NCBI RefSeq assembly: GCF_040537815.1
Contig: NZ_JBEWSZ010000013.1
Coordinates: 1-64,000 of the forward strand
Reading direction: 5' to 3'
DNA from: Mesorhizobium shangrilense
GTDB lineage: Bacteria; Pseudomonadota; Alphaproteobacteria; Rhizobiales; Rhizobiaceae
DNA length: 64,000 nucleotides
Below are positions 17,369 through 59,726 of this stretch, piece after piece. A model generated the notes under the pieces. The model did no database searches. It was not told where the DNA came from and saw only the letters and a list, made by a program, of their open reading frames with translations. The position numbers were made by a program, and so were the translations under genes. Within the stretch, counting starts at the first letter, position 1; each line of letters starts with the position of its first letter.

Positions 17369-17369
17369 A

Positions 17370-18713: not shown

Positions 18714-18755
18714 CTCGAGTTCTCCGGAGATACATTGTTCTCGATGGGGTAGCGT

Positions 18756-21034: not shown

Positions 21035-21602
21035 GCATATGCTCCGCTATAGCCGCCCAGGGAACCGGCAGGCAAGGGTGACTCAAGACCCGCTCCAATC
21101 AGCCCGCCGGCACCCCGCCTCCGACACGGGCGTCACTCATCCGGTGGGCCAGGCGACGAATTGTCACCACGACGAGAATATCGGTTCGGCAACTCCTGAC
21201 GCCTCGCGACAAGGGAGCCTCAAAAATCATGCCCGCATCGCAGAAAGAGCCTAAAAACGAGCATTTCTCCATATTATTCAATAGTTTAATAAGGTGCGCA
21301 GGCCGAACAGTCCCGCGTCGCGGACTCGACAAAGCGACGGTAAAATGTCGGTTATCAGACGTTGTCCTGGGAATGCTGGACAGGTGCTTACTAACGGCGG
21401 CGCGCCGAGGCATCGGTTCCGAGCAGCCGTTGCGGCCACGGTCTTCCAGCCGGTCAAGGGGCGGTCCAGACCCCACCTTGATCGTGCACAGCCACACCGT
21501 CCATTTCGACAATTGCGGCGGCACCATCGACAAGCGCGAACGCTATTGGTTCCGCGCCCAGAACACGACCTCGCCTGCCGCCTCCTACCGCAAACCTGCT
21601 TG
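21035..21602. other. intergenic region upstream of hdc-like operon
   Basis: No gene that I can support. It should hold the leftward promoter of the hdc-like operon, but I see no RpoN-type or other recognisable box. Peptide scraps such as IVHSHTVHFDNCGGTIDKR (about 21480-21535) may be remnants of a lost gene. Confidence 0.35.
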
Positions 21603-21721
21603 TGTCCGAAGCTGAACAAGAATGTCGCAAACCCGGCCAAAAGGTCGCCAAGGCCGGGCCACCCGCCTACCGAGCAAGCCGTGTAACGCAGACGGAGCGC
21701 CGAGTCGGCACGCAACTTGCT
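21603..21721 (+). promoter_or_regulatory. NifA upstream site and RpoN -24/-12 promoter (module copy A)
   Basis: TGTCCGAAGCTGAACA at 21603-21618 is an exact TGT-N10-ACA NifA site. CGGCAC (21706-21711), five bases, TTGCT (21717-21721) is a -24/-12 element with GG and GC ten bases apart. The 88-bp stretch between is similar to copies B (25782) and C (35959). It points to the reductase gene at 22047, giving a ~310-base leader. Confidence 0.8.
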
Positions 21722-25313: not shown

Positions 25314-25781
25314 TTTCACTTGAAGGCACCCAATCGGCTACTTTTTTGCAGAGACCCTTTTGGCTCGAGCAGGAGCACCGTGCCTTCGCGGAGACCGAGC
25401 GCCCCTCACAATCCTCGCGCACCAGGACCGAGAAGGGTCCTGTATGGTCGGGGCGATCAGCACTTTCGCACAGGCTCGGGAACCCGTTCCGGACAGGCCG
25501 GCCGACGCATTGTCGCGCGCCGGCGCGCACTGCAGCGATCGGGTAAGGCTTTGTCTCTACCGCAGGCACGGCGATCCGCGAAGACGCCGCTGTCGCAGCA
25601 TCTACGATCGCGCTGTTGCTACTCCGGCCCTGTCGAGGAAGCTCTTTGACATCTTCCAGCCCTTCAACAAGCGCGCACCGCTCCGGACGCCGTGGGGATC
25701 GAGTTCGGCTCGGGTCGCGGCGTTTGCATGCCTCAGGTCCCTTTCATTTGCTCCTCCGTGGCGTCTATCCGCAACCTTCTG

Positions 25782-25897
25782 TGTTCGAAGCTGAACAAGT
25801 ATGTCGCAAACCCGACCAAAAGGCCGCCAAGGCCGGGCCACCGGGACCGGGCAAGGGGTGCAACGCAAACGGTGCGCTAATCGGCACGCAACTTGCT
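25782..25897 (+). promoter_or_regulatory. NifA upstream site and RpoN -24/-12 promoter of the P450 operon (module copy B)
   Basis: TGTTCGAAGCTGAACA (25782-25797) is TGT-N10-ACA; CGGCAC at 25882, five bases, TTGCT at 25893-25897 is the -24/-12. Transcription would start near 25910, ~155 bp before the P450 gene. Known NifA control of the related NGR234 block agrees (recalled, not checked). Confidence 0.82.
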
Positions 25898-26065
25898 CCG
25901 ACAGTTTTGTCAGAGTGACGTTCGCAGTGCTTCATGGAGCTCAGTGGTCATTGACCAATCTGCACGGCGCCTGAGCCGGAACATATCCCCTGCTGGTAAT
26001 CGACCTTGTGACCAGTCGTGCGATCCAATCGAGCGCAAGAACGCCTGACGTTCAGGAGAAACCAA

Positions 26066-27283
26066 ATGGCGGTCAACCCGGTTCCAGATCATGTTCCGCC
26101 CGAAATGGTGAGGGACTTCAGTCTGTTCACGTCGCCTGGCATGGCGCCGACGCCGAACGGGGATCCGCACGCAGCTGTCGCTTGCGTCCATAGCGGGCCG
26201 CCGATCTTTTATTCGCCCTGCAACACGCGCGATGGCCGGGGCACCTGGGTCGTCACTCGGGCCACAGACCAGCGCCGAGTGCTGCAGGACGCCGAAACCT
26301 TTTCCAGCCATCGCAGCATCTTCTCATCCGCGCTGGGCGAAAGCTGGCCGATGATCCCGCTTGAACTCGATCCACCGGCCCATGGTGTTTTTCGCTCACT
26401 GCTCAATCCCCTGCTTTCGCCGAAGCGGGTGGTGGTATTGGAGCCGAAGGTCCGCGAGCGAGCGATCACGCTGATCGATAGGATAGCCGCATCGGGCACA
26501 AGCTGCGACGTCATGAAGGATTTTGCCTTTCCTTTCACGGTCAGCATCTTCCTTCGCCTTCTGGGGCTGCCGGATCACCGACTCGATACATTTGTGGGCT
26601 GGGCGAAAGATCTGCTCCACGGCGACGATGTGAAGCGACCGGCGGCGGCCCAGACGATTGTGGCCTTCATCGACGAACTTGCAACCAAGCGCCGCAAGGA
26701 ACCGGCCGACGATTTCATGACCTTCATCGTGCAGGCACAGGTCGAGCGACGCCGCCTGACCGAGGAGGAAGTCCGTGGCATCGGCGTGCTCGTGTTCGTC
26801 GCGGGGCTCGACACGGTCGCGGCAGCTATTGGCTTTGGCTTGGCTTATCTCGCGCGCAACCTCAAAGATCAGGATTTGCTGCGGCGCGAACCGGACCGAA
26901 TCGTGCTTGCAGCCGAAGAATTGCTGCGCGCCTATCCGACCGTTCAGATAATCCGCGTGGCAACCAAAGATATCGACTTCGAAGGCGCGCCGATCCGCAA
27001 GGGGGATTATGTTTCCTGCGCCACGATGATTGCCAATCGTGACCCGGCGGAATTCGAATGCCCCAACACGGTCGATCTGGCGCGAGAGGACAACCGCCAC
27101 GCCGCCTTTGGCTATGGTCCCCATCGTTGCCTTGGCTCACACCTTGCCCGGCGGGAGATTGTCATTGGCCTGGAGGAGTGGCTGGCGCGCATCCCGGCTT
27201 TCCGGATCAAGAAGGCTACGGCACCCATTACCTCTGGCGGCCATGTATTCGGGATCGAAAATCTAATCCTGGACTGGTCCTGA
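26066..27283 (+). CDS. cytochrome P450
   Basis: 405 residues, full length. Helix K EELLRAYP (ExxR), I-helix region FVAGLDTVAAAIGF, and heme-binding FGYGPHRCLGSHLAR with the ligand Cys at about residue 355. It is soluble, so a class I bacterial P450 that takes electrons from a ferredoxin; such a gene follows 45 bp downstream. AGGAG before ATG 26066 sets the start. From memory it resembles CYP127-type P450s (NGR234 y4vG) rather than the gibberellin P450s. The substrate is unknown; it heads a NifA-controlled block with SDR and flavin monooxygenase genes. Confidence 0.88.
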   Translation: MAVNPVPDHVPPEMVRDFSLFTSPGMAPTPNGDPHAAVACVHSGPPIFYSPCNTRDGRGTWVVTRATDQRRVLQDAETFSSHRSIFSSALGESWPMIPLELDPPAHGVFRSLLNPLLSPKRVVVLEPKVRERAITLIDRIAASGTSCDVMKDFAFPFTVSIFLRLLGLPDHRLDTFVGWAKDLLHGDDVKRPAAAQTIVAFIDELATKRRKEPADDFMTFIVQAQVERRRLTEEEVRGIGVLVFVAGLDTVAAAIGFGLAYLARNLKDQDLLRREPDRIVLAAEELLRAYPTVQIIRVATKDIDFEGAPIRKGDYVSCATMIANRDPAEFECPNTVDLAREDNRHAAFGYGPHRCLGSHLARREIVIGLEEWLARIPAFRIKKATAPITSGGHVFGIENLILDWS

Positions 27284-27328
27284 CTAAGCCCCGTCCCGAG
27301 CCGGGGCGCAGACATTGGAGGTAGCGCT

Positions 27329-27538
27329 ATGCGCATTATTGTCCACAAAGCCAGATGCCAGGGTCACGCGCGATGTTCGGCGCAAGCGCCGGACGTCTTC
27401 AGGCTTGATGACGAGGGCTACATCCTGCCCGGTGACATTGAGGTTGGGGAGGGGGAGCAACTGCTTGCGTCACGCGGTGCGCGATCCTGCCCCGAACGTG
27501 CGCTGGAACTCGACCGTACACCCGCTGCGCGAGGTTGA
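27329..27538 (+). CDS. [3Fe-4S]-type ferredoxin, P450 redox partner
   Basis: 69 residues. CQGHARCSAQAPDVF gives two Cys ligands and ARSCPERAL the third, the usual pattern of small P450-associated ferredoxins. GGAGG just before ATG 27329. It follows the P450 gene and should pass electrons to it. Confidence 0.85.
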   Translation: MRIIVHKARCQGHARCSAQAPDVFRLDDEGYILPGDIEVGEGEQLLASRGARSCPERALELDRTPAARG

Positions 27539-27751
27539 ATCGGACGTCATTGAACCGAGAACCTGGCGGGCTTGAATGGGGGATCGACCATGTGGCCGCA
27601 CACTGGAAGAACGGCACGCTGCCTTTGCCCCAACCCGTCCTCGTCCAACTGCGCAAAGGCATCCCCGGCATCGAGGTGCTGCCATGATGCGCAACCGGCG
27701 GCGGGGTTCGCCAAACATTTCTTCCAATCACGCAATTTTGCGACAGAGACA

Positions 27752-28342
27752 ATGGACCAGGCAAAAATTACCGAATTACTCGACCGTGAGGCGATCCGCG
27801 ACTGCCTCTATCGATACTGCCGCGGGATAGACCGCGCGGATGAGGCGGCGTTGCGCAGCGCGTACTGGCCCGATGCGCATGACAGTCATGGGGCCTATTG
27901 CGGCTCGGCAGAGGGCTTCATCCGGTTTGCGCTCGGTGTCTTCAAGACCAGGCCCCGCAACATCCATCAGATCACGAACATCCTGGTCGAATTCATCAGC
28001 CCGGCAGAGGCCGCGGTCGAAAGCTATTTCACCGCGCTGCAACGCGGACCGGACAGAGACGGAGAAGTACGCCAGACCCTCCTCTGCGGCCGCTACTGTG
28101 ATCTGTTTCAGAAGAGGGAAGGGGAGTGGCGAGTTGCCGAACGGACGGTGGTCTACGATTGGCTCGAGGAGCAGATCCCACCAGGGGCCCTTGAGGCAGA
28201 GCGGTTCGGGTCTCGGCAGCCGATTGGAGCACCTCATCCGGATGATCCGGTCTATGCGCTCGGCAAGCGTCCTTCTCGCCATGATGCCTTCAGTGATTTC
28301 GAACGGGAGATCCGCATCGGCAGTGGGGACGACAGACTATGA
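27752..28342 (+). CDS. SnoaL-like (NTF2 fold) protein
   Basis: 196 residues. [20 protein letters not shown] and [17 protein letters not shown] match the nuclear-transport-factor-2/SnoaL-4 fold used by small isomerases, dehydratases and dioxygenase beta-like subunits. In this operon it could act on the P450 or SDR product, but no catalytic residues can be assigned with confidence. The ribosome site is weak and the 210 bp before it contain no gene. ATG 27752 is chosen because family similarity begins right there. Confidence 0.7.
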
Positions 28343-28709
28343 CAACTTTGCAATGCCACAGCGGCCCGGCGAAAGCCTGCCCAGTGAAGATGCGGCCGAT
28401 AAATTGCCTTTCTGCCCCGCGTCGGCGTGACCGTGATCAGCTCTGGCGTCACGAGCCCGCCGACGAGGCTGGTGCGCATCGATCCGCGGGATATCGGCAC
28501 AGCCGCCCATCGAGGCTACTGCCTGTCTTGGCGGGTCGCTTGCCAGCTTGGGATATCAAATCGAGAGTTGGACCGCAGCCGGAACGCACGACGTCTATCT
28601 GGGACCGCAACGGGCCGTCACCAGGGCGTGCTGCTTTACCTCGACCGGTCATTCCGCCGCCCAACGTTGATGGGCTGAAATCGCTGCGGCTGGTCGCGGG
28701 GAAGTTCTC
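28343..28709 (+). other. unresolved stretch between SnoaL-like and SDR genes
   Basis: Protein-like runs occur in different frames (VTVISSGVTSPPTRLVRID, RGYCLSWRVACQ, then GYQIESWTAAGTHDVYLGP). This suggests a frameshifted remnant of a gene I cannot identify. No intact gene is visible. Confidence 0.4.
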
Positions 28710-30312
28710 ATGAAGCAGGCAGGACGCATCGTCATCATTACAGGCGCCGCGGGCGGGATCGGCCGTGCCCTAGTCGATGTTGTTGCCAAGGATGGAGACA
28801 CTGTTGTTGCGGTGGACCTTCCGGGCAGCGGCGTCGTTGAACTGGCTCATGGTCTCGGCTACCCGCATCTCGGCCTCGAGTGCGATGTCTCCCGGGAGGA
28901 GGATATTCTCGCGCTTTACGGCCGGGTCGAAGCACAGTTCGCGCAGATTGGCGTCCTCATCAACAACGCGGCGATGGGACCCACCATGGCCGCAACTGTC
29001 GACACCGGTGTCGACGCCTTCCGACGCGGGCTGGCAGTAAACCTGATTGGGCCGTTCGTCATGGCTCGCGAAGCGGCGAGGCGCATGAGGCCGGGCGGTG
29101 CTATCGTCAACATCGCTTCCATGGCGGGCATGGTCGGCAATCCCAAGCGCAATGCCTACGCAGCATCGAAAGCGGGCCTGATCTCATTGACGAAGTCGCT
29201 TGCATGCGACTGGGCTTCTCGCGGCATCCGCGTGACGGCGGTAGCGCCGGGCTACGTGCGCACGCCGATGGTCGCTGAACTGGAACGCGCGGGCAAAAAT
29301 CGACCTCGCCGCGGTGCGCCGCCGCGTGCCGATGGGGCGCTTGGCGCGGTCCGACGAGATCGCCCTCGCTGTGCGTTTTCTGGCCAGCACGCAGGCGCGC
29401 TATATCACCGGATCGGTGCTGGCGGTCGACGGCGGCTGGATGTCATTTAACCAGCCGGGGAATGCGCACCCGCCGGTGGATGGGACGCCCCGAGCCGAAC
29501 TCTCCTGTCCGGCCGAACGCGCCGACGCGCGAATCGTGCTCGTCACGGGTGGTGCGAACGGCATAGGCGCGGCCGTGGTTCGCCGCTTTGCCGCGAGCGG
29601 CGATACCGTCGTGATTGCTGACAGAGATGGCGCTGCAGCAGCAGAGTTCGCTGGATTGCTCGACGGCAAGAACCCGGCCAAATCCGTGGACGTGGCCGTC
29701 GAGAGTGAGGTTGTCGCGCTGTTCGAGGAGTTGCGGGGACGCTTCGGGCGCGTCGATGTCCTCGTCAACGGTGCTGGTGTCGCCGAGACGTTGTTGTCGG
29801 GGATCGAACAAATACCGGAACGGATCGAACACGTCCTGGATGTCAATCTTACCGGCGCCTTCATTTGCGCGCGCGAGGCGATCAAGACAATGCGCCCTGG
29901 CGGCGTGATCCTCAACCTCGGATCGATCAACAGCTTTCTGCCGTTCGCGCCGCGCCATGCCTACGGCGCCTCCAAGGCGGGGATGGGCATTCTGACCCGA
30001 TGCATGGCGGCCGAACTCGGGCCGGTCGGCATTCGGACAGCCACCGTCGCTCCTGGTTACATCCGCACGCCTGGCGTTGCTCAGTTGGCGAAAGTCGGCC
30101 GCATCGACTCGACAGCGATCAGACGACGCATCCCGATGGGCAGGATGGGACGGCCGGAAGATGTCGCAGACGCGGCATTTTTCCTCGCTTCGTCTGACGC
30201 CTCATACATCAACGGCTCGATCCTCTACGTGGACGGCGGCTGGACCTCGTTCGGTGATGCGGGAAACGCCAGCGAACTCTATGACGAATGTTTTGCGGAG
30301 GCCGCGGGCTGA
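28710..30312 (+). pseudogene. double SDR dehydrogenase (y4vI-like), one frameshift
   Basis: Two complete short-chain dehydrogenase domains in tandem. Domain 1 has VIITGAAGGIGRALVDVV, NNAAMGPT and YAASKAGLISLTK; domain 2 has VLVTGGANGIGAAVVRRF, NGAGVAE and YGASKAGMGILTR. All keep the Gly motif and Tyr-x3-Lys. Domain 1 leaves frame near 29297 at a run of five A; dropping one A restores AGKIDLAAVRRRVPMGR, which mirrors domain 2 (VGRIDSTAIRRRIPMGR). The restored protein would be ~534 residues, like the fused y4vI of NGR234. The shift is either a true mutation or a sequencing error. It would reduce or oxidise the P450 operon's intermediate. Confidence 0.8.
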
Positions 30313-30618
30313 GTATCGACCATTCGCCAGGCGACGGGCTTCGGCTCATGGAAGCCCAAGATTTCAAATTGCTCCCAGGCTCCCGCTGCGCGACGCGCCC
30401 GCAGCGTGGTCCGCGATCGAGGATATGGTCTTTGGCGCGGAAAGGTCCTCCTCGGGGTCGAAACAGTTCCGAGCCTTCCGGGTGCGCTTGCAACCGCGGA
30501 ATGCGAGCGGTTTGCCGCAAGACTATGCCGGCGCCGAGCGTCGGATCGCCACCGCGGCCAAAGCAATCTGTGCGCATGCCCCTGATTGGCCAACTCCATC
30601 TGCAAACAAGGAGACACC
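30313..30618. other. intergenic, SDR to monooxygenase
   Basis: 306 bp without a gene or a promoter box that I can recognise; GG/GC spacing in the one -24-like TTGGCC run near 30590 is wrong for RpoN. Confidence 0.4.
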
Positions 30619-31671
30619 ATGGAATTCGCCACCTTCATCCTGGCCGCCCAACGTGGCTACCATCAATCCTCCGACAGCGTCATCCGAAACTCCATCGAAC
30701 AGGCCGTCGTTTCGGAGCAGGCTGGCTTCGGCACCGCCTGGTTCCCCGAGCACCACTTCAACAATTACAGCCTGATTCCGTCACCCTTGATGATGGTGGC
30801 GCACTGCGCCGGCGTGACGAACACCATTCGCCTCGGCACTGCCGTCTGCGTGCTGCCGCTCTATCAACCGCAGCGCCTGCTTTCCGAGATCGGCTTCGCC
30901 GACATCGTTGCGAACGGTCGTCTCGAGCTCGGCGTCGGCGTGGGATACCAGCAATTCGAGTTCGAGCGCTTCGGCGTCAATATCGATGAGGCGCCGGCCG
31001 TCTTTTCGGAATACCTGGACATCCTCCTGAAGGGCCTCAACCAGAAGGTCTTCGAGCACAACGGCCAGTATGAGAACATACCCCCGACAGCGATTTCGGT
31101 GCGCACCGTCCAGAAGCCGACCCCGCCGATCTGGATCGCCGGCGGGCCGGCGCGCATGGAGCGGGCCTATCGCGAGGGACACAATTTCTTTGTCACAGCA
31201 TTCCACGATGGCCTGGAGGATTTGAGCAGGCTGCGCCGAACCATCGAGAAGGCAGCGGCTTGCGAGGGCAGGAATGTCACGGACGCCAAGATTTCGCTGC
31301 TGCGCTGCTGCTATGCCAGCGACGACCAGGCGGAGATCAACAGCTATCTCGATAACGCCCGCTTCCAGCGCCGGCTGTCAGAGGCGTTGCATCAGCGCCG
31401 TCAGCAGAGCGACGACGGCTATCTGCTGACGGAAACACCGACGCGGCAGGATCTGTCGTTCGAGACCATGCGCAAGAACCTGCCGATCGGCAGTGTCAAT
31501 CGCGTGATCGATCGCCTGCTGGAAGAGATGGACATCTTGAGACCGGATCAGATCGCAATTCAGACCCAATTGGGAGATTTCGACCAAAAGACGATGCTGC
31601 GCCAGATCGAGCTCTGGGGAGACAAGATCATTCCCGCGATCAACAAGTCGCTGGGTCATGCGCAGATTTGA
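30619..31671 (+). CDS. LLM-class flavin-dependent monooxygenase (y4vJ-like)
   Basis: 350 residues, full length for luciferase-like monooxygenases. ATFILAAQRGYHQSSDSVIR at the start, GTAWFPEHHFNNYSLIPSP with the flavin/substrate His pair, RLGTAVCVLPLYQPQRLLSE, LELGVGVGYQQFEFERFGV, and PPIWIAGGPARMERAYREG. AAGGAG precedes ATG 30619. It needs FMNH2 and oxygen from a separate reductase. From memory it is the counterpart of y4vJ, which lies beside nif genes in NGR234. The fdxB and nifQ genes follow in the same direction, so it may share the NifA-driven transcript. Confidence 0.82.
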   Translation: MEFATFILAAQRGYHQSSDSVIRNSIEQAVVSEQAGFGTAWFPEHHFNNYSLIPSPLMMVAHCAGVTNTIRLGTAVCVLPLYQPQRLLSEIGFADIVANGRLELGVGVGYQQFEFERFGVNIDEAPAVFSEYLDILLKGLNQKVFEHNGQYENIPPTAISVRTVQKPTPPIWIAGGPARMERAYREGHNFFVTAFHDGLEDLSRLRRTIEKAAACEGRNVTDAKISLLRCCYASDDQAEINSYLDNARFQRRLSEALHQRRQQSDDGYLLTETPTRQDLSFETMRKNLPIGSVNRVIDRLLEEMDILRPDQIAIQTQLGDFDQKTMLRQIELWGDKIIPAINKSLGHAQI

Positions 31672-35557: not shown

Positions 35558-35958
35558 TTTTAAATGAAGAGCTTTTGCAGCGATCCTTTGGCTTCGCGAG
35601 GACGTCTTCGCTTGGGCTGGGTGCGCGCTATAACCGCCTGGTCACCACACTGAACAAAGGTGCCGCATGGTGCGGGTATTCAGCGCTTCCGCGACCGGCT
35701 GGGGAATGACGAAACGGGCAGACGAGCCGATGCCGCACCGGGCAGTGCAGCGATTGCATAGCGTCTGCCGTTTGCGTGTTCTTGCGTGCGCAGGCACGGC
35801 TATGGCGCAGACACGGCTGGCGCAGCAACCATGAGCGCGCGCTCTTCAGCAAGCGCCCTGGTCCGAATTCGTTGGGATCAAGTTCCGCCCTGGTGAGACC
35901 TTTACATGCCTGAGGTTCCATTTGGTCTCCCCGAGAGTGTTGATCGGCAACCTTCTTT

Positions 35959-36077
35959 TGTCCGAAACTGGACAAGAATGTCGCAAACCCGACCGAAAGG
36001 CCGCCAAAGGCCGGGCCACCGGTTAGTGGGCAAGCGGTGGAACGCAAACGCAGCGCCAATCCGGCACGCAAATTGCT
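35959..36077 (+). promoter_or_regulatory. NifA upstream site and RpoN -24/-12 promoter (module copy C)
   Basis: TGTCCGAAACTGGACA (35959-35974) is TGT-N10-ACA. CGGCAC at 36062, five bases, TTGCT at 36073-36077 is the -24/-12 with correct spacing. No convincing gene lies downstream before the convergent glycosyltransferase gene, so its transcript is an orphan. Confidence 0.72.
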
Positions 36078-36449
36078 TCGGTGATCTTGTCAGTGGGGCG
36101 TTGTGGAGAATAGGCGATCAACATGGAGCGTGCTCGATGCTCGCCAATGCGATGGCCAGAACAGGACGATGAACCCAGCCACACCAAGGAGCTTGACCGC
36201 TACTAGTAAGCCACGGCGCTTCCCCCCAAGATCGCGCCTCTGTCTCCCAAGCCGGTTGGCCTCGACCAGTAAACGAGGGCCACCCGATGAAGCTCTCGGA
36301 CCTGGTCACAGCGCATATGGCACCAAGGACGCCCCTCGGCCATGTCCGCTCGATGCGGGCCAGGCACGCACTGATATGTGGACGAAAAAGTGCGCTTGGC
36401 CGGTTGGACGCTCGAGCAGTCCCGCACCTCTCCGATCCGTCGCCCCTGA
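36078..36449 (+). other. stretch downstream of promoter copy C, no clear gene
   Basis: Open frames exist (for example ATG 36121, MERARCSPMRWPEQD, 28 codons) but none shows a motif or family pattern. A transcript from 36089 would run antisense into the glycosyltransferase gene. It may hold a small RNA or a lost gene. Confidence 0.35.
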
Positions 36450-37886
36450 TCAGCTGGTTTGGAACGGTTCCCGGTATTGCACCCCCTCAAAGCTGGATAG
36501 AGCCGATTGAATCGACTCATACCACTTTGGAATTTGCGAGATTTGCGTACTCGAGCGCAGGCAGTTTTCGCGCGCGGTTCTGGCCATCTCCTCGAAATCA
36601 CTATAACCGGTCGCAAGGCGATGCATCATTTCTGCAGCTTTGTCCTCGATGTCCGGCTCGTCGAGGACAACGCCATTCAGCCCATTTACGACCTGCCTCT
36701 TTAGGCCAAAGGCGGACGACACTACGACGGGTTTTCCTCGGAACAGGGCCTCTGTTGCTGTCAGGCCGAAGCCCTCCTCGCGAGAGAGCGCAAATACTCC
36801 ATGGGCGTTCTGTTGCAGCCGGCCGACAATTTCGGCATTTGCGTCGTGGTCCTTCATCGAGATACAGGTCAGATACACGCGCCGCCGCACTTCCTTGGGT
36901 AATTGAGAGCATAATGCGACGCATTTCTCGAAATACTCGCGTCCTTCAGGATCGTCGGCAACATCCAAAGGATCCGGTCCCGCGATCACCATGCGTATAT
37001 CGTCTGCATCGGCGAGCGCCATTTTCACAAAGCGATCGAAAGCGGCGATGATCCGGTCAATTCCTTTCAGTCCATCCCACCTGGATACATGCAGGAAATA
37101 CCGCGAGCCGAGAATGTTCTGAAGGGATGAGGTGGGCTCGAATTCTTGGCTATTGAACGAAAACGAATTCTCCAGCGTCTTGCCCGCTGGCCCTTCATAG
37201 TTACGGTTCTTGCTTGAGAATGGGCTGATCGATGGCTGGATGATATCTATGGGGAGACCGGTATCAAAGGCATATTCCTTGGCGCTCAGGACAATGCGCT
37301 GGAATTGACGCAGGTATTCTCCCAGAAACCCCCAGGTTTCGTCGACTGTCGGGGTGCGCTTTGGATAGCCGATGTGGCATCGCCAGATAGCCGGGTGCGG
37401 GTGAGAGTCCAGGAACTTCGCAGCTGCACCAAGTGGCTGCGGATCATGAATAATCAGAAAGGCATCAGGTCTGATAATCCTTTCCAGCTGCGCGGCGCCT
37501 TGCTTCGATGCCTCAAGATAATGCGGCAGCAGATCATTCAAGCCTGCCACAGCGGCGTCGTGCAGAGAATTGTGAAGTCCTTTGGTGAACTCAAAAAATT
37601 GCTCTTCCTTCGGTTTAAAAATGAGCCAACGCACATCAAAACCAAGTTCCCGAAGGAGGCATATGTGGTGTGGAAGCATTTCGGCCACCCCACCGCCGAA
37701 CGCGGTGGAATTTATGTGCCAAATAGAACGGCGGCCAATCTTGTCACGAATTGCACTGGACGAACGAAATAGTTCATTGAGAAGTTCGTCATACTTGTTT
37801 CGTTCCGCTGCGTAATGCTCAAGTACCGAGCCTTCTATCAGCACCTCATCAAATAGTGGTGTGCGGGATTTCGTTGATACTTTCAT
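36450..37886 (-). CDS. GT4 glycosyltransferase, trehalose synthase (TreT)-like
   Basis: 478 residues in two Rossmann halves. N-terminal half: IWHINSTAFGGGVAEMLPHH, DAFLIIHDPQPLG and AIWRCHIGYPKR. C-terminal half: RYFLHVSRWDGLKGIDRIIA (nucleotide-sugar site) and FALSREEGFGLTATEALFRG with the E-x7-E motif. This is the pattern of trehalose glycosyltransferring synthase, which joins NDP-glucose and glucose, and of related alpha-glycosyltransferases. It overlaps the HAD phosphatase gene by four bases and is the last gene of a five-gene leftward operon. The true acceptor may be a modified sugar. Confidence 0.82.
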   Translation of the reverse strand: MKVSTKSRTPLFDEVLIEGSVLEHYAAERNKYDELLNELFRSSSAIRDKIGRRSIWHINSTAFGGGVAEMLPHHICLLRELGFDVRWLIFKPKEEQFFEFTKGLHNSLHDAAVAGLNDLLPHYLEASKQGAAQLERIIRPDAFLIIHDPQPLGAAAKFLDSHPHPAIWRCHIGYPKRTPTVDETWGFLGEYLRQFQRIVLSAKEYAFDTGLPIDIIQPSISPFSSKNRNYEGPAGKTLENSFSFNSQEFEPTSSLQNILGSRYFLHVSRWDGLKGIDRIIAAFDRFVKMALADADDIRMVIAGPDPLDVADDPEGREYFEKCVALCSQLPKEVRRRVYLTCISMKDHDANAEIVGRLQQNAHGVFALSREEGFGLTATEALFRGKPVVVSSAFGLKRQVVNGLNGVVLDEPDIEDKAAEMMHRLATGYSDFEEMARTARENCLRSSTQISQIPKWYESIQSALSSFEGVQYREPFQTS

Positions 37887-38572
37887 TTCGTGGCCCGCCG
37901 TTCAGTCTGAGAAGCAGGTTCAGCGCGGCCGGTTAGAAAGGAAGCCTCGCTAAAATTCTCTATCCAGCCCCTGGTGTCAGGGTGACCCCTGGCATTGGGG
38001 CCGACACCTACGCAGTCGCAGCCTGCAGCGATCGCCGCTTCAATACCGGTGCGGGAATCCTCAAAAACCAAGCATCTTTTGGGAGTGATGCGCAGCATTC
38101 GCAACAGCGTTTGATAGGGTTGCGGATGCGGCTTTCCGTGACTGACGTCCTCGGCTGCAATCATGATCCTCGGGCGGGAGAGCCCAGCGGCCTCGAGGCG
38201 GGCAAGGGCCGAAACCCTTGCCGAAGAGGTGACAATAGATCTCCGTTCGGCGGGGATCGAGCTATAGAACTCTGCGGCGCCCTGGATCGGTTGCAACAGC
38301 CTCATCGCTTGGATCTCATAATCCGCAATGCGAGTTGCTTCGCGTTCTGGCGAGCGACCGGGCGTAATCGCCGCCACCAGGTCGACGTCCCGGCGGCCGG
38401 CCGACATCCGAATTGCGTAATCCGGAGAGATCCGTTCCTCTCGTGCCCATCGACGGAGTGCGCTTTCGACCACAGCCTCCGAATCTACAAGGGTACCGTC
38501 CAGATCGAAGGCAACATGATCATAATCTTCGAGCTGAACATTGACGGTTGTGGTTTTCGTTCGATCTTTCAC
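37883..38572 (-). CDS. HAD-superfamily sugar phosphatase/phosphomutase-like protein
   Basis: 229 residues. Motif I HVAFDLDGTLVDSEAV with the nucleophile Asp, motif II RSIVTSSARVSALARLEAAG, motif III DVSHGKPHPQPYQ, motif IV LVFEDSRTGIEAAIAAGCD: the beta-phosphoglucomutase/phosphatase subgroup. The GKPxP block and the cap suggest a phosphosugar substrate. GTG 38572 is used. Coupled to the glycosyltransferase gene, it may remove a phosphate from the glycosylation product or its precursor. Confidence 0.82.
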   Translation of the reverse strand: MKDRTKTTTVNVQLEDYDHVAFDLDGTLVDSEAVVESALRRWAREERISPDYAIRMSAGRRDVDLVAAITPGRSPEREATRIADYEIQAMRLLQPIQGAAEFYSSIPAERRSIVTSSARVSALARLEAAGLSRPRIMIAAEDVSHGKPHPQPYQTLLRMLRITPKRCLVFEDSRTGIEAAIAAGCDCVGVGPNARGHPDTRGWIENFSEASFLTGRAEPASQTERRATK

Positions 38573-38588
38573 GGCTTTCCTCCCCGTA

Positions 38589-39835
38589 TCAGCCCGAATG
38601 ATGCTTGCTGGAGAGACATACTCTTTCTGTGGTGTGGAACGCCTCCGCGCAGTATTCGACTATGGGTGCGTCAGTGACCTGTGCAGTCATGTCCTCGTCC
38701 TTGCGGTAGTCTGCGAGTGCTCGCTCCAGTGCCGGCTGCAAAGCTGCGAAAAATGCACCTTCCATGGACGCATTGCTCATGTATGTCCCTGGGTAGCCGG
38801 TGTAGATACCGTGTTGCAGACACCTCTGAGCGAAGACCCTTCCATGCTTTTGCGAGGGCAGAACGATTCTGAACATGGTATCGCTCCGAGCACGCGCGCA
38901 GGTATTTCGCTACGCTCGAACGAGGTCTGGAACTGCCTCTTGAGCGCTAAGCCGCTCTCGGCGATGCGAGCCGCGATTTCTGCTTCTTCAGAGATTTCCT
39001 GTGTCAGGTTGCCGGCCACATAGGCCCGGTTCTCGCGCAGATAGGTATTACCAAGGTAGGCCTTGTCGGCTCCCACCATGGCACCGGCGGTGCCGACGAC
39101 CGCGGAAAGGCCAATGCCTTGTGCGATCCCCTTCGCCAATGTGATGAGGTCAGCTTTCACACCGTGTTTTCGGTAGTAGCCACCCTTGGCGTAACGACGT
39201 CCGCATAGAACCTCATCAACGATAAGCAATACTCCATGCGGGCTAGCCATCCTGGAGATCTCCTGGAGCAATTCCGGAGGAAAGACCGAAGACTCAGGCG
39301 TGACGAAAATGCCCGCGACTCTCCCCTCGTTCCCGACTAGCTGCTGCTCAAGGTTATCGAGATCATATTGGAAATCCTGGATATGCTGATCCTTGGCCGG
39401 CGGATTGCCCGACCAGGGGTGCTGTTGAAAGATGTCGTGCCACCCGTGGAAGCCAGCCGTCAGGATGACCGGCCGGCCAGTTCGGTGTCGGGCGATCCGA
39501 ACAGCCGCTTCCGTCGCACAAGATCCGGTCCTCAGAAAGAACACTCTGGAATTGCTTGGGAACATCTCCGAGATTTTCCCGGCGAGTATCTGGCGTTGCT
39601 CACTCACCGGAGATGGCAGAATATCAGTTTCTCGCTCCATCGCCTGCGCAAGCTTGGCCTTGAACACTGGGTCATTGTTGCCCAAGGGCGAAGCCCCGCT
39701 GCAGGACGTCATATCCAGATAGATCTTGCCGTTGATATCCTCCGCCATCCCGCCATTGGCGGACCGGAATATGATGGATGACCGGGTGTCACGCTCCCAT
39801 TCCGCCAAATGCTCGGTAGCTCCAGGATCGAGCAT
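38589..39835 (-). pseudogene. class III PLP aminotransferase (glutamate-1-semialdehyde aminomutase type), one frameshift
   Basis: Frame one from ATG 39835 shows IIFRSANGGMAEDINGKIYL, VFFLRTGSCATEAAVRIARH, GVLLIVDEVLCGRR (PLP Asp) and LITLAKGIAQGIGLSAVVG (PLP Lys). Near 38880 homology moves to the next frame, MFRIVLPSQKHGRVFAQRCL, GYPGTYMSNASME, ending at 38589. Joined length ~415 residues is normal. The break removes only the last quarter; it may be a sequencing error or a true mutation. Relatives in aminoglycoside pathways aminate a sugar C6 aldehyde made by a GMC-type oxidase; the gene upstream is a GMC oxidoreductase. Confidence 0.78.
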
Positions 39836-39847
39836 CGAAATTGCCCC

Positions 39848-41338
39848 TTACTTGACTGACATGGCCATTCGCCTGGCGTTGGCCATGAATGTGTGTGTCG
39901 GATTGCTGCTCCCCGCGAAGTTCATAACGGAGCCATCCATGACATGGATGTTGGTGAACCCGTGGACCCTGCCGCAGCTGTCTACCACCGAGGTCCTCGG
40001 ATCACATCCGGCACGCATCGTGCCGTGCAGGTGGCCGCTGCCTTTTCCATGGGAAGATGGCTCTCGCTCGATGCGGAATGCGCCAAGATGGCGCAGAATG
40101 TCATCCGCGCGGTCGGCGAGAAAATTTATTCGCGCACGGTCATTTTCGGAGTTTCGGTATTCGAAACGGATGTAAGGGATACCGTACTGGTCAACGGCCT
40201 CGTCAAGCACGACGCGATTATGCGACCATGGCTCTTCTCCAGCTGTGTAGTGCAGGCGCACAAGGCCGACGTTCTTATCCGGCGAGGGGAAATTCGCTTC
40301 ATAAATGAGGCCGCCAAATCTGCATGGCACGTCGTTATGCTCGTAGAAGTCATCGGTATAAACCGTCGCATGCGGTCCCCAGTGCGGAGCAAATGCACCG
40401 GAGCCGCGATCGGCCGGTTCCATGTAGCCGACGGAGTAGCCTTTAATCTTGAATGAGAGGCCCCGCCCAACGAGGCCGGATTCGTTTCCTATTCCCTTCG
40501 GTGCATGCCCACTCTTCGACCGAAGCATCAATGCCGCTGATTGTATCGCGTTTGCGCAGACGATGACCCTTTCAACTGGGATCCGGATCAGTTCCGATGA
40601 GAGCGGCACATAGCACTCAAGGGCTTCAGCCCGACCGTCGTCCCGCATTTCGATCCGGTTGACGAAACAGCCGTATAGAACCGAGATCGTTCCTGGCAGG
40701 GGAGAGTCATCCAAAATGTTTCTTGCAAGCACTGATGCTCTCGCATCCGTAGGGCACACCAGATCATCGCAAGCCGAACAATTGGTGCATCCCTTGTTGG
40801 TCCTTGGCGGCCTGATTGCCAGGGGGATGCTCTTTGATCTTATGCTGAGTTCCTGCATTGCATTGGATAACATCAACCCACGCGGACTGGCTGGATACGA
40901 TAGGAACCCATTCGCACCACTGACCTCCAGGAGATGCTCGATCTCCGAATAGTAGGGTTCAAGATCCTGGAGGGTAATGGGCCAATTAATCTCCATGTCA
41001 GTCGCAAGATATTGGGAGACTGACAGATCTGCTTGTCGGTACCTGAACGTTATCCCGTTGTAGAACGGCATCCCGCCGCCGACGCAGCACGCTGTCCATG
41101 GGTTACCATCGGCGGGGCCGTTGGAAGTGAGTGCCTTGCTGTAGGCCGCTTGATGAGGCTCAAGCATGGCGCCAGGGGAAACCAGGCCTCCATATTCCAG
41201 GACGGCCACATGGCAGCCCCTTTCCGCAAGTGTTCGGGCGACGATCGATCCAGATGGCCCGGAGCCGACGATAACCGCATCGAAGTTTGTGTAATTACAT
41301 GAGTCCGCTGCAATGTGTCTGATGTCCGTCACGGTCAA
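39848..41338 (-). CDS. GMC-family FAD-dependent oxidoreductase
   Basis: 496 residues. AVIVGSGPSGSIVARTLAER is the FAD-binding GxGxxG; GGGMPFYNGITFRYRQADL is the GMC signature region; GHLHGTMRAGCDPRTSVVDS, NIHVMDGSVMNFAGSSNPTH give the C-terminal active-site His and Asn/His positions. CTNCSACDDLVCPTDARAS is a Cys-rich loop. GMC enzymes oxidise alcohols, often sugar hydroxyls (compare NeoQ/BtrQ). TTG 41338 or GTG 41332 are candidate starts, directly after the stop of the preceding gene. It is followed 12 bp later by the aminotransferase gene. Confidence 0.86.
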   Translation of the reverse strand: MTVTDIRHIAADSCNYTNFDAVIVGSGPSGSIVARTLAERGCHVAVLEYGGLVSPGAMLEPHQAAYSKALTSNGPADGNPWTACCVGGGMPFYNGITFRYRQADLSVSQYLATDMEINWPITLQDLEPYYSEIEHLLEVSGANGFLSYPASPRGLMLSNAMQELSIRSKSIPLAIRPPRTNKGCTNCSACDDLVCPTDARASVLARNILDDSPLPGTISVLYGCFVNRIEMRDDGRAEALECYVPLSSELIRIPVERVIVCANAIQSAALMLRSKSGHAPKGIGNESGLVGRGLSFKIKGYSVGYMEPADRGSGAFAPHWGPHATVYTDDFYEHNDVPCRFGGLIYEANFPSPDKNVGLVRLHYTAGEEPWSHNRVVLDEAVDQYGIPYIRFEYRNSENDRARINFLADRADDILRHLGAFRIEREPSSHGKGSGHLHGTMRAGCDPRTSVVDSCGRVHGFTNIHVMDGSVMNFAGSSNPTHTFMANARRMAMSVK

Positions 41339-41946
41339 TAGTCTCCTGTGGGGTGTGCGGTAGCTGGCCAGCGGGCGGTGCTCGCGATGGAGGCCAGGAG
41401 GTGCTTATACGGGCCACGTAGTGGGGAACCGCGATGCCTGCCGGGCCGGTGGCAGGGTGACGGTAGTTGACGAAGAGGCCGTCGTAGGTACGCGCGACCC
41501 AGAGGTACACTTCGTCCGGGTCGCTGCTGCGGCCGCAGAGGATGACAATCCGCCAAAGTGTTCCAGTCTCGGGCACCGGGGGTGCGACGAAGGTCACTGT
41601 ACGAAACCATGAAGGGGTCGCGGAGGGGTCGGCCGAGGAACTCCTCCACTCGGGGTATGGGTATCTGGGCCAGGTCCTTCACTCCGTCGAGGCCGGAGAC
41701 CGCGGAGCGCACCGCCTCAGCGAAGGAGTCGGTTGCGCTTGCAGGGAAGGTGATGGGGCCCATACCTACGTACCAGCCGATGGAGGACCGCGAGGGACCC
41801 GTCAGGGTGTCGAGCAGGACACTGAGCAGAGTGGTGCCGGAGCGGTTCTCACCGCCGAGCAGGACAGGGTTAGAGGGCAGGGCGAGAGGAGGGGACACGT
41901 CTTTGTCCATGCCCACATTTACTAGGAGAGGTTTGGAAGTGTTCAC
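41335..41946 (-). CDS. P-loop sulfotransferase-like protein, possibly frameshifted
   Basis: 203 residues from GTG 41946, which has GAGGAG seven bases upstream. NPVLLGGENRSGTTLLSVLL is the PAPS-binding P-loop of sulfotransferases. The C-terminal half is Arg/Pro/Leu rich without family features, and the alternative frame (from about 41597) looks more protein-like (GTLWRIVILCGRSSDPDEV), so a frameshift near 41600 is possible. It is the first gene of the NifA/RpoN-type operon. Sulfation of a sugar product is a reasonable guess but unproven. Confidence 0.5.
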   Translation of the reverse strand: MNTSKPLLVNVGMDKDVSPPLALPSNPVLLGGENRSGTTLLSVLLDTLTGPSRSSIGWYVGMGPITFPASATDSFAEAVRSAVSGLDGVKDLAQIPIPRVEEFLGRPLRDPFMVSYSDLRRTPGARDWNTLADCHPLRPQQRPGRSVPLGRAYLRRPLRQLPSPCHRPGRHRGSPLRGPYKHLLASIASTARWPATAHPTGDY

Positions 41947-42118
41947 TTTCGTCTCCTCAAGCACGAGACTTTAGGCGACGCGATCACTGCCGGACCGGTA
42001 CCCCTCGGGAGGTGGCGTAGCCAGAATTCATGCGCATCGACCTCAGATGGCTTTTTGAGCCCCCTGGAAGAGGTTTTGGGAGACTTCTCCTCAGTCCGTA
42101 CTCGTCTTGCGGATAGCC

Positions 42119-42212
42119 TTGCATGTACCGTGCCAAAGCAGAAAGCATTTGAAAACATCTGATTGGTCAGATTCTGTTACGTTGCATACCCGACATTGTC
42201 GGGTATTGGACA
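42119..42212 (-). promoter_or_regulatory. RpoN -24/-12 promoter and NifA site of the glycosyltransferase operon
   Basis: On the minus strand TGGCAC (42135-42130), GGTAC, ATGCA gives GG and GC ten bases apart; the -12 has one change (A for T). TGTCGGGTATTGGACA at 42197-42212 is an exact TGT-N10-ACA NifA site 62 bp upstream. Transcription would begin near 42110, ~160 bp before the first gene. Confidence 0.72.
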
Positions 42213-42452
42213 ACGATGGCGCATGATGCATGCTTTATCTTAGAGTTCTGTCCGCAATTCTTGGGACAGCGCCGGGCAACTATGGGCCGGAATGATCAGC
42301 GCGCCACTGCCGGCAGGCTGATGAGAGGATCATCTGACATGAAACAACTGCTTTACGCCGCAACTGGCTTTGCCGCTGTCACCTTCCTGCCGAGCGCCGC
42401 ACTGGCTCAGGATGCCTCTTGGAGCGTCATCTGGCGTTCGATAGCTTTCTTG

Positions 42453-46078: not shown

Positions 46079-47005
46079 TTACTTATCACCGATTCCCAAT
46101 ACTGTTGCCAGCCGGTCAGTTAAGACGGCCCTGGCCTTCGCGCTCAGCCGATCAAGGTTCTGCTGCTTGAATCTCACCGCAGGTAGATCGGCCGCCCCGG
46201 CGACTCCGAGCTTTTCCCAGTCAGGCTCGCCCTTCTTGAAGCCAACCAGAAATTCCCGATGCGCCTGGGGCATACCGCCGATCAGGATTTCAACGAGTTG
46301 CGCCCGCGCGGCGTGAAGCTCGGCGAGCGGTACATCCTCCTCGGTCATCCCGGCAAAGTTCCTCTCATATTCGGCCGCAATGTCCTTCTGGCCCGAGGCG
46401 ATGATTTCCCCGATAGGGCGGCCATGGCTGATGAGATAGACGATAAACCCCTGGCGCAAATCGTCGGTGATCCCCTCGTTGGCTAGCAAATCCCTGATAT
46501 CGAAAAGGTCGCGCGGGTGCTGCCGGTCAAGGGCCGCCATGATCTTACCCGCATATAAATCCGCAAACGAAACGACCTGGATCTCCGCGAAGCCGAATTC
46601 ATCTTCTACGGCTGCCGACACGGGCCTTATTTCCGGGGTAAAAACACAGCCACGCAGAACGGGCGTGACTTCGATCTTGATCCGCGTGCGGTTCCTGTCC
46701 TGAACGACAAGGCGTGTAAGGCCGCCGTCATTCTGGCGGCTTTCAAAGACGCGCACGCCTGCGACTGCGTCTTCGATCCGTTTCTTGATACGCAGGAGCG
46801 CAACCTCGATGGCAGCCAGTGATTCATCGCGCGGCATGACCGGTAGGAAGGTCAGGTCGATATCGACTGACAGTCGCGGCATATCGCGGACGAACAGATT
46901 GATGGCGGTGCCACCCTTGAGGGCGAAGTCCTTCTCCTCGGCAACAGCTGGGAGTGTCTGGATTAGCAAGGCGACCTGGTGGCGGTACTGTTCACTGACC
47001 GGCAT
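46079..47005 (-). CDS. abiEii: AbiEii/AbiGii nucleotidyltransferase toxin
   Basis: 308 residues, full length. ALKGGTAINLFVRDMPRLSV then DIDLTFLPV is the GGT...DxD nucleotidyltransferase motif; FADLYAGKIMAALDRQHPRD is the second conserved block (Lys/Asp). AbiEii toxins add nucleotides to tRNA or other targets and stop growth, for example on phage infection. ATG 47005 lies inside the end of the antitoxin gene (14-base overlap) with GGAGG before it, so the pair is coupled. Confidence 0.88.
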   Translation of the reverse strand: MPVSEQYRHQVALLIQTLPAVAEEKDFALKGGTAINLFVRDMPRLSVDIDLTFLPVMPRDESLAAIEVALLRIKKRIEDAVAGVRVFESRQNDGGLTRLVVQDRNRTRIKIEVTPVLRGCVFTPEIRPVSAAVEDEFGFAEIQVVSFADLYAGKIMAALDRQHPRDLFDIRDLLANEGITDDLRQGFIVYLISHGRPIGEIIASGQKDIAAEYERNFAGMTEEDVPLAELHAARAQLVEILIGGMPQAHREFLVGFKKGEPDWEKLGVAGAADLPAVRFKQQNLDRLSAKARAVLTDRLATVLGIGDK

Positions 47006-47843
47006 ATAATTCCTCCGGCACGGTGATCAGGTAGGTGGGATCAAGGCGACCGCCCGGCACGAGCATCCGCTTCCCGGTACCTAGATTGACGGCCTCTTTG
47101 TTGAGGTGCTTGCGCCACGGGTGGTTGTGGCGGTCGGCGAAGAAGAAGAACAGGCGTTTGACCTTGATACTCTTGCAGTCCACGAGCAGCTTCTGCAGCC
47201 GTCGGGGACTGAGGGTAGTGAGCCCTTCTATGATTTTGTCGGCCTGGTCGAAACTCTCATGGCCGGGCAGCCCGTCCAGCATTTCAAGGACGGCGCGCTC
47301 AGGCGTTGAAAGTGTCAGCGGCCATTCCCACTGGCCCCATGGCATAACCCGGAAAGAGCCGCCGTGGATATTGTCGTCGCTGACATGGCTGCCGTCTTTG
47401 AGGTTCCACGCCAGACTGGTAAGCCCGAAGTGTATAGGCTCATTGCGAAACAGCGCCTCGCTATTGTGATAGACGAACGTAATTTGCAGCGGGAGCTTGT
47501 TCAGCCAGGTGGGCGCTTCGTCGGGGCCATAGAGGTGAACCTCTTTCTCTTCCCGCCTGAGATAGTGAGAAAATCCGTGGAGTGACAGCGCCGTGCCTCC
47601 ACCAACAAGGAGCGGTTTCATCAGCAGGGTCTGCAGCGATATGACCACATGCTCCCACAGGAGTTTTCCGCCGGGCTTGCGATAGGCGCCGTGAGCGACG
47701 CGTTCGAGCCAGCCGTTGGTTACGTATTTCCGGCAAAGCTGCGCAGAGTAGCCGCGCTCCTTCAACCATGCCGAATCTACGACCAGCCCTTCGGGAAGTT
47801 CGCGTTGGAGGTGGTTTAGTTTTCCATGGAATTCTTCACTCAT
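46992..47843 (-). CDS. abiEi: AbiEi-type antitoxin with winged-helix N-terminus
   Basis: 283 residues. The N-terminal wHTH reads LVVDSAWLKERGYSAQLCRK then YVTNGWLERVAHGAYRKPGG, and the antitoxin domain follows (LLVGGGTALSLHGFSHYL, TPERAVLEMLDGLPG, LLVDCKSIKVKRLFFFFADR). It represses its own promoter and counters the AbiEii toxin in a type IV arrangement. It starts at ATG 47843, after which the sequence becomes AT-rich (47860-47930), a likely promoter. Confidence 0.85.
   Translation of the reverse strand: MSEEFHGKLNHLQRELPEGLVVDSAWLKERGYSAQLCRKYVTNGWLERVAHGAYRKPGGKLLWEHVVISLQTLLMKPLLVGGGTALSLHGFSHYLRREEKEVHLYGPDEAPTWLNKLPLQITFVYHNSEALFRNEPIHFGLTSLAWNLKDGSHVSDDNIHGGSFRVMPWGQWEWPLTLSTPERAVLEMLDGLPGHESFDQADKIIEGLTTLSPRRLQKLLVDCKSIKVKRLFFFFADRHNHPWRKHLNKEAVNLGTGKRMLVPGGRLDPTYLITVPEELYAGQ

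Positions 47844-58763: not shown

Positions 58764-59726
<963 letters not shown>

Follow-up and report, generated by a model that had tools for sequence, protein, structure and literature searches.

Introduction

The mycobacterial sulfolipid-1 pathway, which includes the sulfotransferase Stf0 and the exporter MmpL8, and the aminoglycoside pathways, in which an oxidase is paired with an aminotransferase, are among the described systems closest to an operon that we analyzed in the first 64,000 nucleotides of a Mesorhizobium shangrilense contig (hereafter, the window). A third, rhizopine (mos) synthesis in Sinorhizobium meliloti, is a bacteroid pathway under nif control with an aminotransferase acting on a sugar-like ring; it is inositol-based and proceeds without TreT, a GMC oxidase, a sulfotransferase or an acyltransferase. 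PapA2 is described as the acyltransferase of the sulfolipid-1 pathway (PMC6996325), and trehalosamines as amino-trehalose natural products, one of them reported from Bacillus amyloliquefaciens (PMC6960277). The literature listings held no biosynthetic gene cluster for trehalosamines, and in the accessible parts of the open-licence literature we found neither such a cluster nor a description of the present operon.

The window operon is a damaged copy of a real gene family. Intact relatives on nod/nif plasmids comprise six genes: a sulfotransferase, a condensation-type acyltransferase, a GMC oxidase, a class III aminotransferase, a HAD phosphatase and a TreT-like glycosyltransferase (GT). This is an undescribed pathway family shared by nodule bacteria of several groups, and its predicted product class, an amino-substituted trehalose, is that of the trehalosamines. 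Like the sulfolipid-1 pathway, the family has a trehalose-forming enzyme, a sulfotransferase and an acyltransferase that is nearest to PapA2 among solved structures, with an RND adaptor at five Sinorhizobium/Ensifer loci; unlike it, the sulfotransferase is of another family, an oxidase and an aminotransferase are added, and the hosts are Gram-negative. The reading we favor, with a probability of roughly 0.6, is that a sulfolipid-1-like amino-trehalose pathway came under nif control in Mesorhizobium before being trimmed there. An earlier note on the window, which proposed that the operon makes an aminated, perhaps sulfated, trehalose-like sugar, finds comparative support for the family but not for this copy as sequenced, and it missed the acyltransferase, which is the most telling gene.

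Intact relatives and their distribution

Scanning genomes with a GMC alignment yielded 31 loci, from which two (L050 and L051; 29%) were dropped; the other 29 (L021–L049) were tabulated together with three plasmid loci, 32 in all. When a set was called intact if all six genes were present at ≥87% coverage without an in-frame stop in the match, nine of the 32 loci qualified: two in Pseudomonas (L025, L026), six in Sinorhizobium/Ensifer (L028, L029, L030, L048, L052, L054; L029 and L052 are identical in protein) and one in Paraburkholderia atlantica (L034). A tenth set, in S. fredii GR64, is complete by annotation. Of the combination that, by the earlier note, would count against its proposal (a confirmed frameshift together with no intact set in another rhizobium), only the frameshift was observed: Sinorhizobium and Paraburkholderia have intact sets, although these show no NifA-type site pair. 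An MFS transporter gene lies between the sulfotransferase and acyltransferase genes in Pseudomonas, Paraburkholderia and Cupriavidus, and is reduced to its N-terminal part at six Sinorhizobium/Ensifer loci. The RND adaptor gene follows the operon at L028, L029, L048, L052 and L106, and was not matched at L030 and L054. HAD and GT are both absent from three Ensifer loci (L031–L033) and from C. taiwanensis (L053).

Among the host genomes or records given, 23 of 29 contain nodA; the hosts lacking it are Pseudomonas (2), Lonsdalea (1 of 4 given), Pectobacterium, Marinomonas and Phaeobacter. All four complete plasmids with the operon also carry nodA and give a strong match to nifH. The GMC oxidase was found at E≤1e-90 in only 6 of 146 Mesorhizobium genomes. 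Horizontal transfer of the operon among alpha-, beta- and gamma-proteobacteria is the best explanation, mainly because the distribution is patchy and plasmid-borne and the identity to Pseudomonas reaches 85%. The GMC tree (25 rows) needs two changes for each of the three classes, of which its starred branches force only one; with four forks open, a single origin of the GMC gene per class would be compatible with this tree.

Lesions of the window copy

The operon occupies the minus strand of contig C13 in an 8.35-Mb genome, with GMC, aminotransferase, HAD and GT4 genes following one another with short gaps or overlaps (Table 1). These four are as the earlier note had named them, but the gene it placed first as a sulfotransferase is not one. 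Only positions 41797–41898 correspond to a sulfotransferase (76% over 34 amino acids); the remainder of 41335–41964 does not, and the product of the whole frame has no Pfam or NCBIfam match. Alignment to the intact S. americanum operon gave sulfotransferase residues 5–38 followed by the C-terminal third of the condensation protein, which reaches 41341 with about 50 residues out of frame, and we therefore rejected a sulfotransferase gene here in favor of a fusion pseudogene. The suspected frameshift in the aminotransferase is present: residues 1–318 and 318–413 match in two different frames, and near 38882 the gene has one base fewer than four relatives. In the genome of the window strain, the only match to the condensation protein is at the operon itself, the sulfotransferase has only weak matches of 30–35% (best 4e-7), and the next best aminotransferase match is at E 3e-15 and 24%. 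Three of the six family genes are thus lesioned, while the GMC, HAD and TreT frames are intact. Since the sulfotransferase and the acyltransferase are destroyed and the aminotransferase is frameshifted, the window copy should not make a sulfated amino-disaccharide.

The aminotransferase lesion could instead be a sequencing error, or be bypassed, such that bacteroids of the strain make 6-amino-trehalose bearing neither a sulfate nor an acyl group, which would be the product of the earlier note less its sulfate. Only a single base is missing, and the 18 synonymous and 13 nonsynonymous window-branch changes before the lesion (P 5e-5) suggest that the gene was selected until recently. After the lesion, however, the branch carries 0 synonymous and 5 nonsynonymous changes (small numbers, not counting two ambiguous changes), this gene is largely or wholly deleted in the M. 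plurifarium group, and the sulfotransferase and acyltransferase are gone regardless, so that we regard this alternative as distinctly unlikely.

A probable trehalose scaffold

The GT is predicted to form trehalose from nucleoside diphosphate (NDP)-glucose and glucose. It matches the TreT N-terminal domain PF21269 at 122 bits against a cut-off of 27, and the twelve best PDB structural matches of its AlphaFold model (pLDDT 92.6) are all TreT. At 5 of 5 Lonsdalea/Pectobacterium loci, OtsB and OtsA (Pfam-confirmed in Pectobacterium only) precede the GMC and aminotransferase genes in place of TreT and HAD, and a second OtsA lies elsewhere in 4 of 4 Lonsdalea genomes. Trehalose as the scaffold is supported by these two observations, the TreT-like structure and the OtsB-OtsA replacement. 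HAD is present at 16 of 16 loci having the GT, as well as in the window, and was not matched at the five OtsA/OtsB loci, suggesting a role in providing TreT with free glucose.

Meanwhile, the GT is only 25–28% identical to solved TreT, its clade stands apart from the remaining TreT sequences (39% to 35%), and it scores 163 bits against the 775-bit cut-off of the equivalog TreT_Thcocales (NF041139), a model named for Thermococcales. A TreT-family enzyme with a changed acceptor, yielding a related glucoside and another amino-glycoside, would account for this divergence. We consider it improbable: the OtsA/OtsB replacement and the PapA2 similarity described below both point to trehalose, and the loci without GT and HAD (C. 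taiwanensis and the three Ensifer loci) would lack a dedicated substrate source if the sugar were not trehalose, which is a common pool.

Proposed amination, sulfation and acylation

In intact relatives, the GMC oxidase adjoins a class III aminotransferase whose best PDB matches are C-6' aminotransferases (9e-38; 3e-110 for the Pectobacterium protein). The oxidase, with four cysteines invariant in 16 rows, is related to LivQ (34% over 96%). The pair therefore resembles the aminoglycoside 6'-oxidase/6'-aminotransferase pairs (LivQ/NeoQ type with NeoN/GenB type), and the aminoglycoside-like amination proposed in the earlier note gains comparative support for the family, though not for the frameshifted window gene. 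In contrast to those pairs, the scaffold enzymes are of the trehalose and not the 2-deoxystreptamine type, and sulfation and acylation are added. In a Marinomonas variant cluster (L046:2254-3348), which also has a MATE exporter and possibly makes a guanidino-sugar relative, an amidinotransferase of the inosamine-phosphate type (1e-57) lies between the aminotransferase and HAD genes; this would be expected if an amine forms. No sulfotransferase or acyltransferase was found on this short contig.

PapA2 was the best PDB match of the intact S. americanum acyltransferase both by sequence (3e-22; sole other match, 1.6e-5) and by fold (5e-35, template modeling (TM) scores 0.85/0.89; next, 1.7e-21), ahead of nonribosomal peptide synthetase condensation domains. 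The H and D of its HxxxD motif are kept in 39 of 39 rows. Sequence and fold together argue for a PapA2-type acyltransferase in the intact S. americanum operon, of which the window has a fragment only. Relatives at 63–65% occur in Streptomyces (63%) and Variovorax. Another on a Tsukamurella plasmid (31%) was set aside, as no GMC, aminotransferase or sulfotransferase gene is annotated within 8 kb of it. In 3 of 4 Lonsdalea genomes, the acyltransferase shares a contig with the otsA cluster, at a distance of 15 to 38 kb. One of these clusters (L041:7608-18828 and beyond) is a larger variant, with otsB-otsA-GMC-aminotransferase-sulfotransferase followed by a radical SAM gene and the acyltransferase about 17 kb from otsA; two open reading frames (ORFs) after the sulfotransferase are glycosyltransferase-like by eye only.

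For the sulfotransferase, the only families listed were PF13469 (Sulfotransfer_3) and PF00685. Two TreT homologues (P0204 and P0205) are fused to adenylyl-sulfate (APS) kinase, and an adenylyl-sulfate kinase gene follows the C. taiwanensis aminotransferase gene on the opposite strand. Taken together, the enzymes of the family seem to point to a sulfated, acylated amino-trehalose as its product.

A putative NifA-type promoter in Mesorhizobium and Cupriavidus

The TGT-N10-ACA and TGGCAC-N5-ATGC elements reported earlier upstream of the operon are real. Single sites are near chance in the window, both for TGT-N10-ACA (11 against a mean of 6.7, with 9 of 100 shuffles reaching as many) and for -24/-12 sites with up to two mismatches (76 against 73). 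Ordered pairs, defined as an upstream activator sequence (UAS) followed by a -24/-12 site with at most one mismatch and 60–200 bp between them, number four against a mean of 0.04 (0 of 200 dinucleotide shuffles reaching 4); three are copies of one plus-strand cassette and the fourth is that of the operon. Such a pair also precedes the operon at five M. plurifarium-group loci, where the promoter region is alignable with that of the window and the pair is kept in all six, and at five Cupriavidus loci, where it is of its own type (109–112 bp start to start, first base of the -24 element A or G). The combination of a UAS with a downstream -24/-12 site thus exceeds chance and is conserved across the window, the M. 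plurifarium group and Cupriavidus, and would be consistent with NifA control of the operon.

We scanned 1.1 kb upstream of 13 further loci: M. alhagi L021, Pseudomonas L025 and L026, Sinorhizobium/Ensifer L028–L033, L048, L052 and L054, and Paraburkholderia L034. None (0/13) has an ordered pair, and single UAS or -24/-12 sites occur at some of them (L021, L028, L029, L034, L048, L052). The NifA/RpoN-type site pair is thus present in two rhizobial lineages, and NifA control of the whole family was rejected. A scan for nod, FixK and tts boxes upstream of 12 of the 13 loci found FixK-like sites with one mismatch at about -54 at L030 and L054 (0 and 2 of 40 background stretches as good), which we do not claim as control, and nothing else better than 4 of 40 background stretches. 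M. alhagi is the sole mesorhizobial locus without the pair. Its genome (strain CCNWXJ12-2) has nodA, and no strong nifH match was found there (best 3e-6); the two absences fit each other, but the draft assembly may explain that of nifH.

The -24/-12 sequence TTGGCACGGTACATGC (16 nt) is identical to the acdS promoter listed for M. loti R7A (PMC3538637, Table 1). In this, and in having rpoN and nifQ nearby, the operon resembles members of the NifA-RpoN accessory regulon of that strain; Table 1 of the same paper includes no such sugar operon. A 221-bp promoter query had matches at E≤1e-3 in 86 of 144 Mesorhizobium genomes, many of them weak and confined to short stretches; its best match other than its own was at 86%, with varied downstream sequence at the loci read. 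Like a portable promoter, the NifA/sigma-54 core is scattered over many Mesorhizobium genomes. The plus-strand cassette copies lie at 21593-21721, 25767-25900 and 35940-36080 (83–85% identical to the third), the last of them (35959-36076) directed at the GT gene's 3' end from the other strand, and three further copies elsewhere in the genome are at 77%, 77% and 75%.

Gene losses and selection

The mesorhizobial copies differ in what they have lost. The M. plurifarium group lacks the sulfotransferase and most of the acyltransferase and keeps at most a C-terminal tail of the aminotransferase, while in M. alhagi the sulfotransferase and aminotransferase are uninterrupted and three stops fall within the condensation gene. 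In the tree, M. alhagi and the M. plurifarium group are joined to the exclusion of the window (90/84, not starred), whereas by pairwise synonymous divergence (dS) the window is nearer to M. alhagi. Since M. alhagi keeps its two uninterrupted genes, either branching order implies separate losses, unless M. alhagi regained genes.

From the equal spacing of the genes, the deletion in the M. plurifarium group looks like a single event that predated the split of its sublineages. Substitutions were counted with one locus per sublineage (L022 against L023, two of five), giving 20 synonymous and 18 nonsynonymous changes in GMC (P 1e-4), 36 and 20 in GT (P 6e-11), and 5 and 5 in HAD (P 0.075, not significant). 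If the deletion is older than the split, at least GMC and GT seem to have been retained under purifying selection.

These counts bear on a rival view of the window operon as a dead relic, in which the genes left over from a natural-product cluster are functionless and the promoter is incidental. Half of its genes are lesioned, and omega on the window branch exceeds that on the M. alhagi branch (GMC, 0.46 against 0.37; GT, 0.43 against 0.33), as a relic would show. However, all three remaining frames are open, the window-branch counts reject neutrality over a branch that partly predates the lesions (GMC 17/25 synonymous/nonsynonymous, P 0.013; GT 15/21, P 0.012; HAD 10/5, P 8e-4), GMC and GT were constrained in the M. 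plurifarium group after its apparently shared deletion, and the site pair persists in all six copies. We therefore hold a dead operon to be rather unlikely.

Operon layout and other features of the window

Besides the operon features (Table 1), the window contains nifH (58845-59660) and, near the operon, nifQ and rpoN. A minus-strand group at 15663-21034, with genes for an EamA transporter, a Cys/Met-metabolism pyridoxal phosphate (PLP) enzyme, a fatty-acid-desaturase-like protein and a PLP decarboxylase, is presumably reminiscent of rhizobitoxine-type clusters. On the plus strand at 26018-31671 are genes for a cytochrome P450, two short-chain dehydrogenases and a luciferase-like monooxygenase, the first of which follows the promoter cassette at 25782-25896. 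An AbiEii/AbiEi-type toxin-antitoxin pair lies at 46079-47843 on the minus strand.

Table 1 Features of the operon in the window
Feature	Position	Strand	Remarks
TreT-type GT4, predicted trehalose synthase	36450..37886	-	open frame; 4-bp overlap with HAD gene
HAD-IA sugar phosphatase-like enzyme	37883..38572	-	open frame
Class III aminotransferase, C-6' aminotransferase-like	38589..39835	-	one-base deletion near 38882
GMC-type sugar oxidase	ORF 39848-41338; family-usual GTG start 41332	-	494 amino acids; frame open
Pseudogene, sulfotransferase N-terminus fused by deletion to C-terminal part of condensation-domain acyltransferase	41335..41964	-	
Promoter core recurring in other Mesorhizobium genomes before varied sequence	42082..42218	-	
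Sigma-54 -24/-12 promoter-like site TGGCACGGTACATGC, TGGCAC-N5-ATGC	42121..42135	-	77 bp downstream of UAS, start to start
NifA upstream activator-like site TGTCCAATACCCGACA, exact TGT-N10-ACA	42197..42212	-	homologous site in five M. plurifarium-group loci

Discussion

From the gene content, lesions, site pairs, conservation, fold assignments and substitution counts, we infer the reactions, their regiochemistry and order, the product, its role and NifA control as follows. The HAD enzyme would free glucose from glucose phosphate, and TreT would join it to NDP-glucose to give trehalose, as OtsA and OtsB would do in Lonsdalea and Pectobacterium. The GMC flavoenzyme would then oxidize a primary (C6) hydroxyl to the aldehyde, which the aminotransferase would convert to 6-amino-6-deoxytrehalose. 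A sulfotransferase dependent on 3'-phosphoadenosine 5'-phosphosulfate (PAPS) would sulfate the amino-trehalose, and the PapA2-like enzyme would acylate it to a sulfolipid-1-like amino-glycolipid or an N-acyl sugar, for export by the MFS pump or, in some Sinorhizobium, perhaps an RND pump. In the Mesorhizobium lineage of the window, the operon lies behind a NifA/sigma-54-type promoter and has lost the sulfotransferase, acyltransferase and aminotransferase, leaving TreT, HAD and GMC.

Several observations weigh against this pathway. First, fructose dehydrogenases lead the PDB sequence matches of the GMC oxidase, with pyranose oxidases likewise ahead of LivQ, so that C6 as the site of oxidation is not certain. 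Second, the sulfotransferase belongs to Sulfotransfer_3, with tyrosylprotein sulfotransferases and not Stf0 as its best PDB matches. Third, neither a polyketide synthase, as found with sulfolipid-1, nor an acyl ligase is annotated at four plasmid loci (L052–L054 and L106), whose gene tables are incomplete. Fourth, the cluster OtsA of Pectobacterium, the only OtsA match of that genome, falls just below the OtsA equivalog cut-off (544 against 565), and Lonsdalea L047 has its cluster OtsA in two pieces. Finally, no NifA-type site pair was found in the 1.1 kb scanned upstream of the complete six-gene rhizobial operons, and expression in nodules is therefore suggested for just two versions, the reduced one of Mesorhizobium and the one of Cupriavidus, which lacks the GT.

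A fuller account is more tentative, and we give it somewhat less than even odds: rhizobial symbiosis plasmids and islands would carry a sulfolipid-1-like amino-trehalose pathway shared horizontally with plant-associated gamma-proteobacteria, which in Mesorhizobium was placed behind a mobile NifA promoter module and trimmed independently at least twice to TreT, HAD and GMC, a functional bacteroid operon making an oxidized (or otherwise aminated) trehalose during nitrogen fixation.

For symbionts of Mimosa, Vachellia, Desmanthus and common bean, the family offers a testable set of genes for a trehalose-derived metabolite. Trehalose has long been known in nodules, where a full role for it is lacking, and sulfated acyl-trehaloses are host-active lipids in mycobacteria. 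If the proposed pathway is true, a Gram-negative symbiont analogue of these lipids on nod/nif plasmids would be unexpected, and its trimmed version would exemplify the reuse of a natural-product operon under the control of nif regulation.

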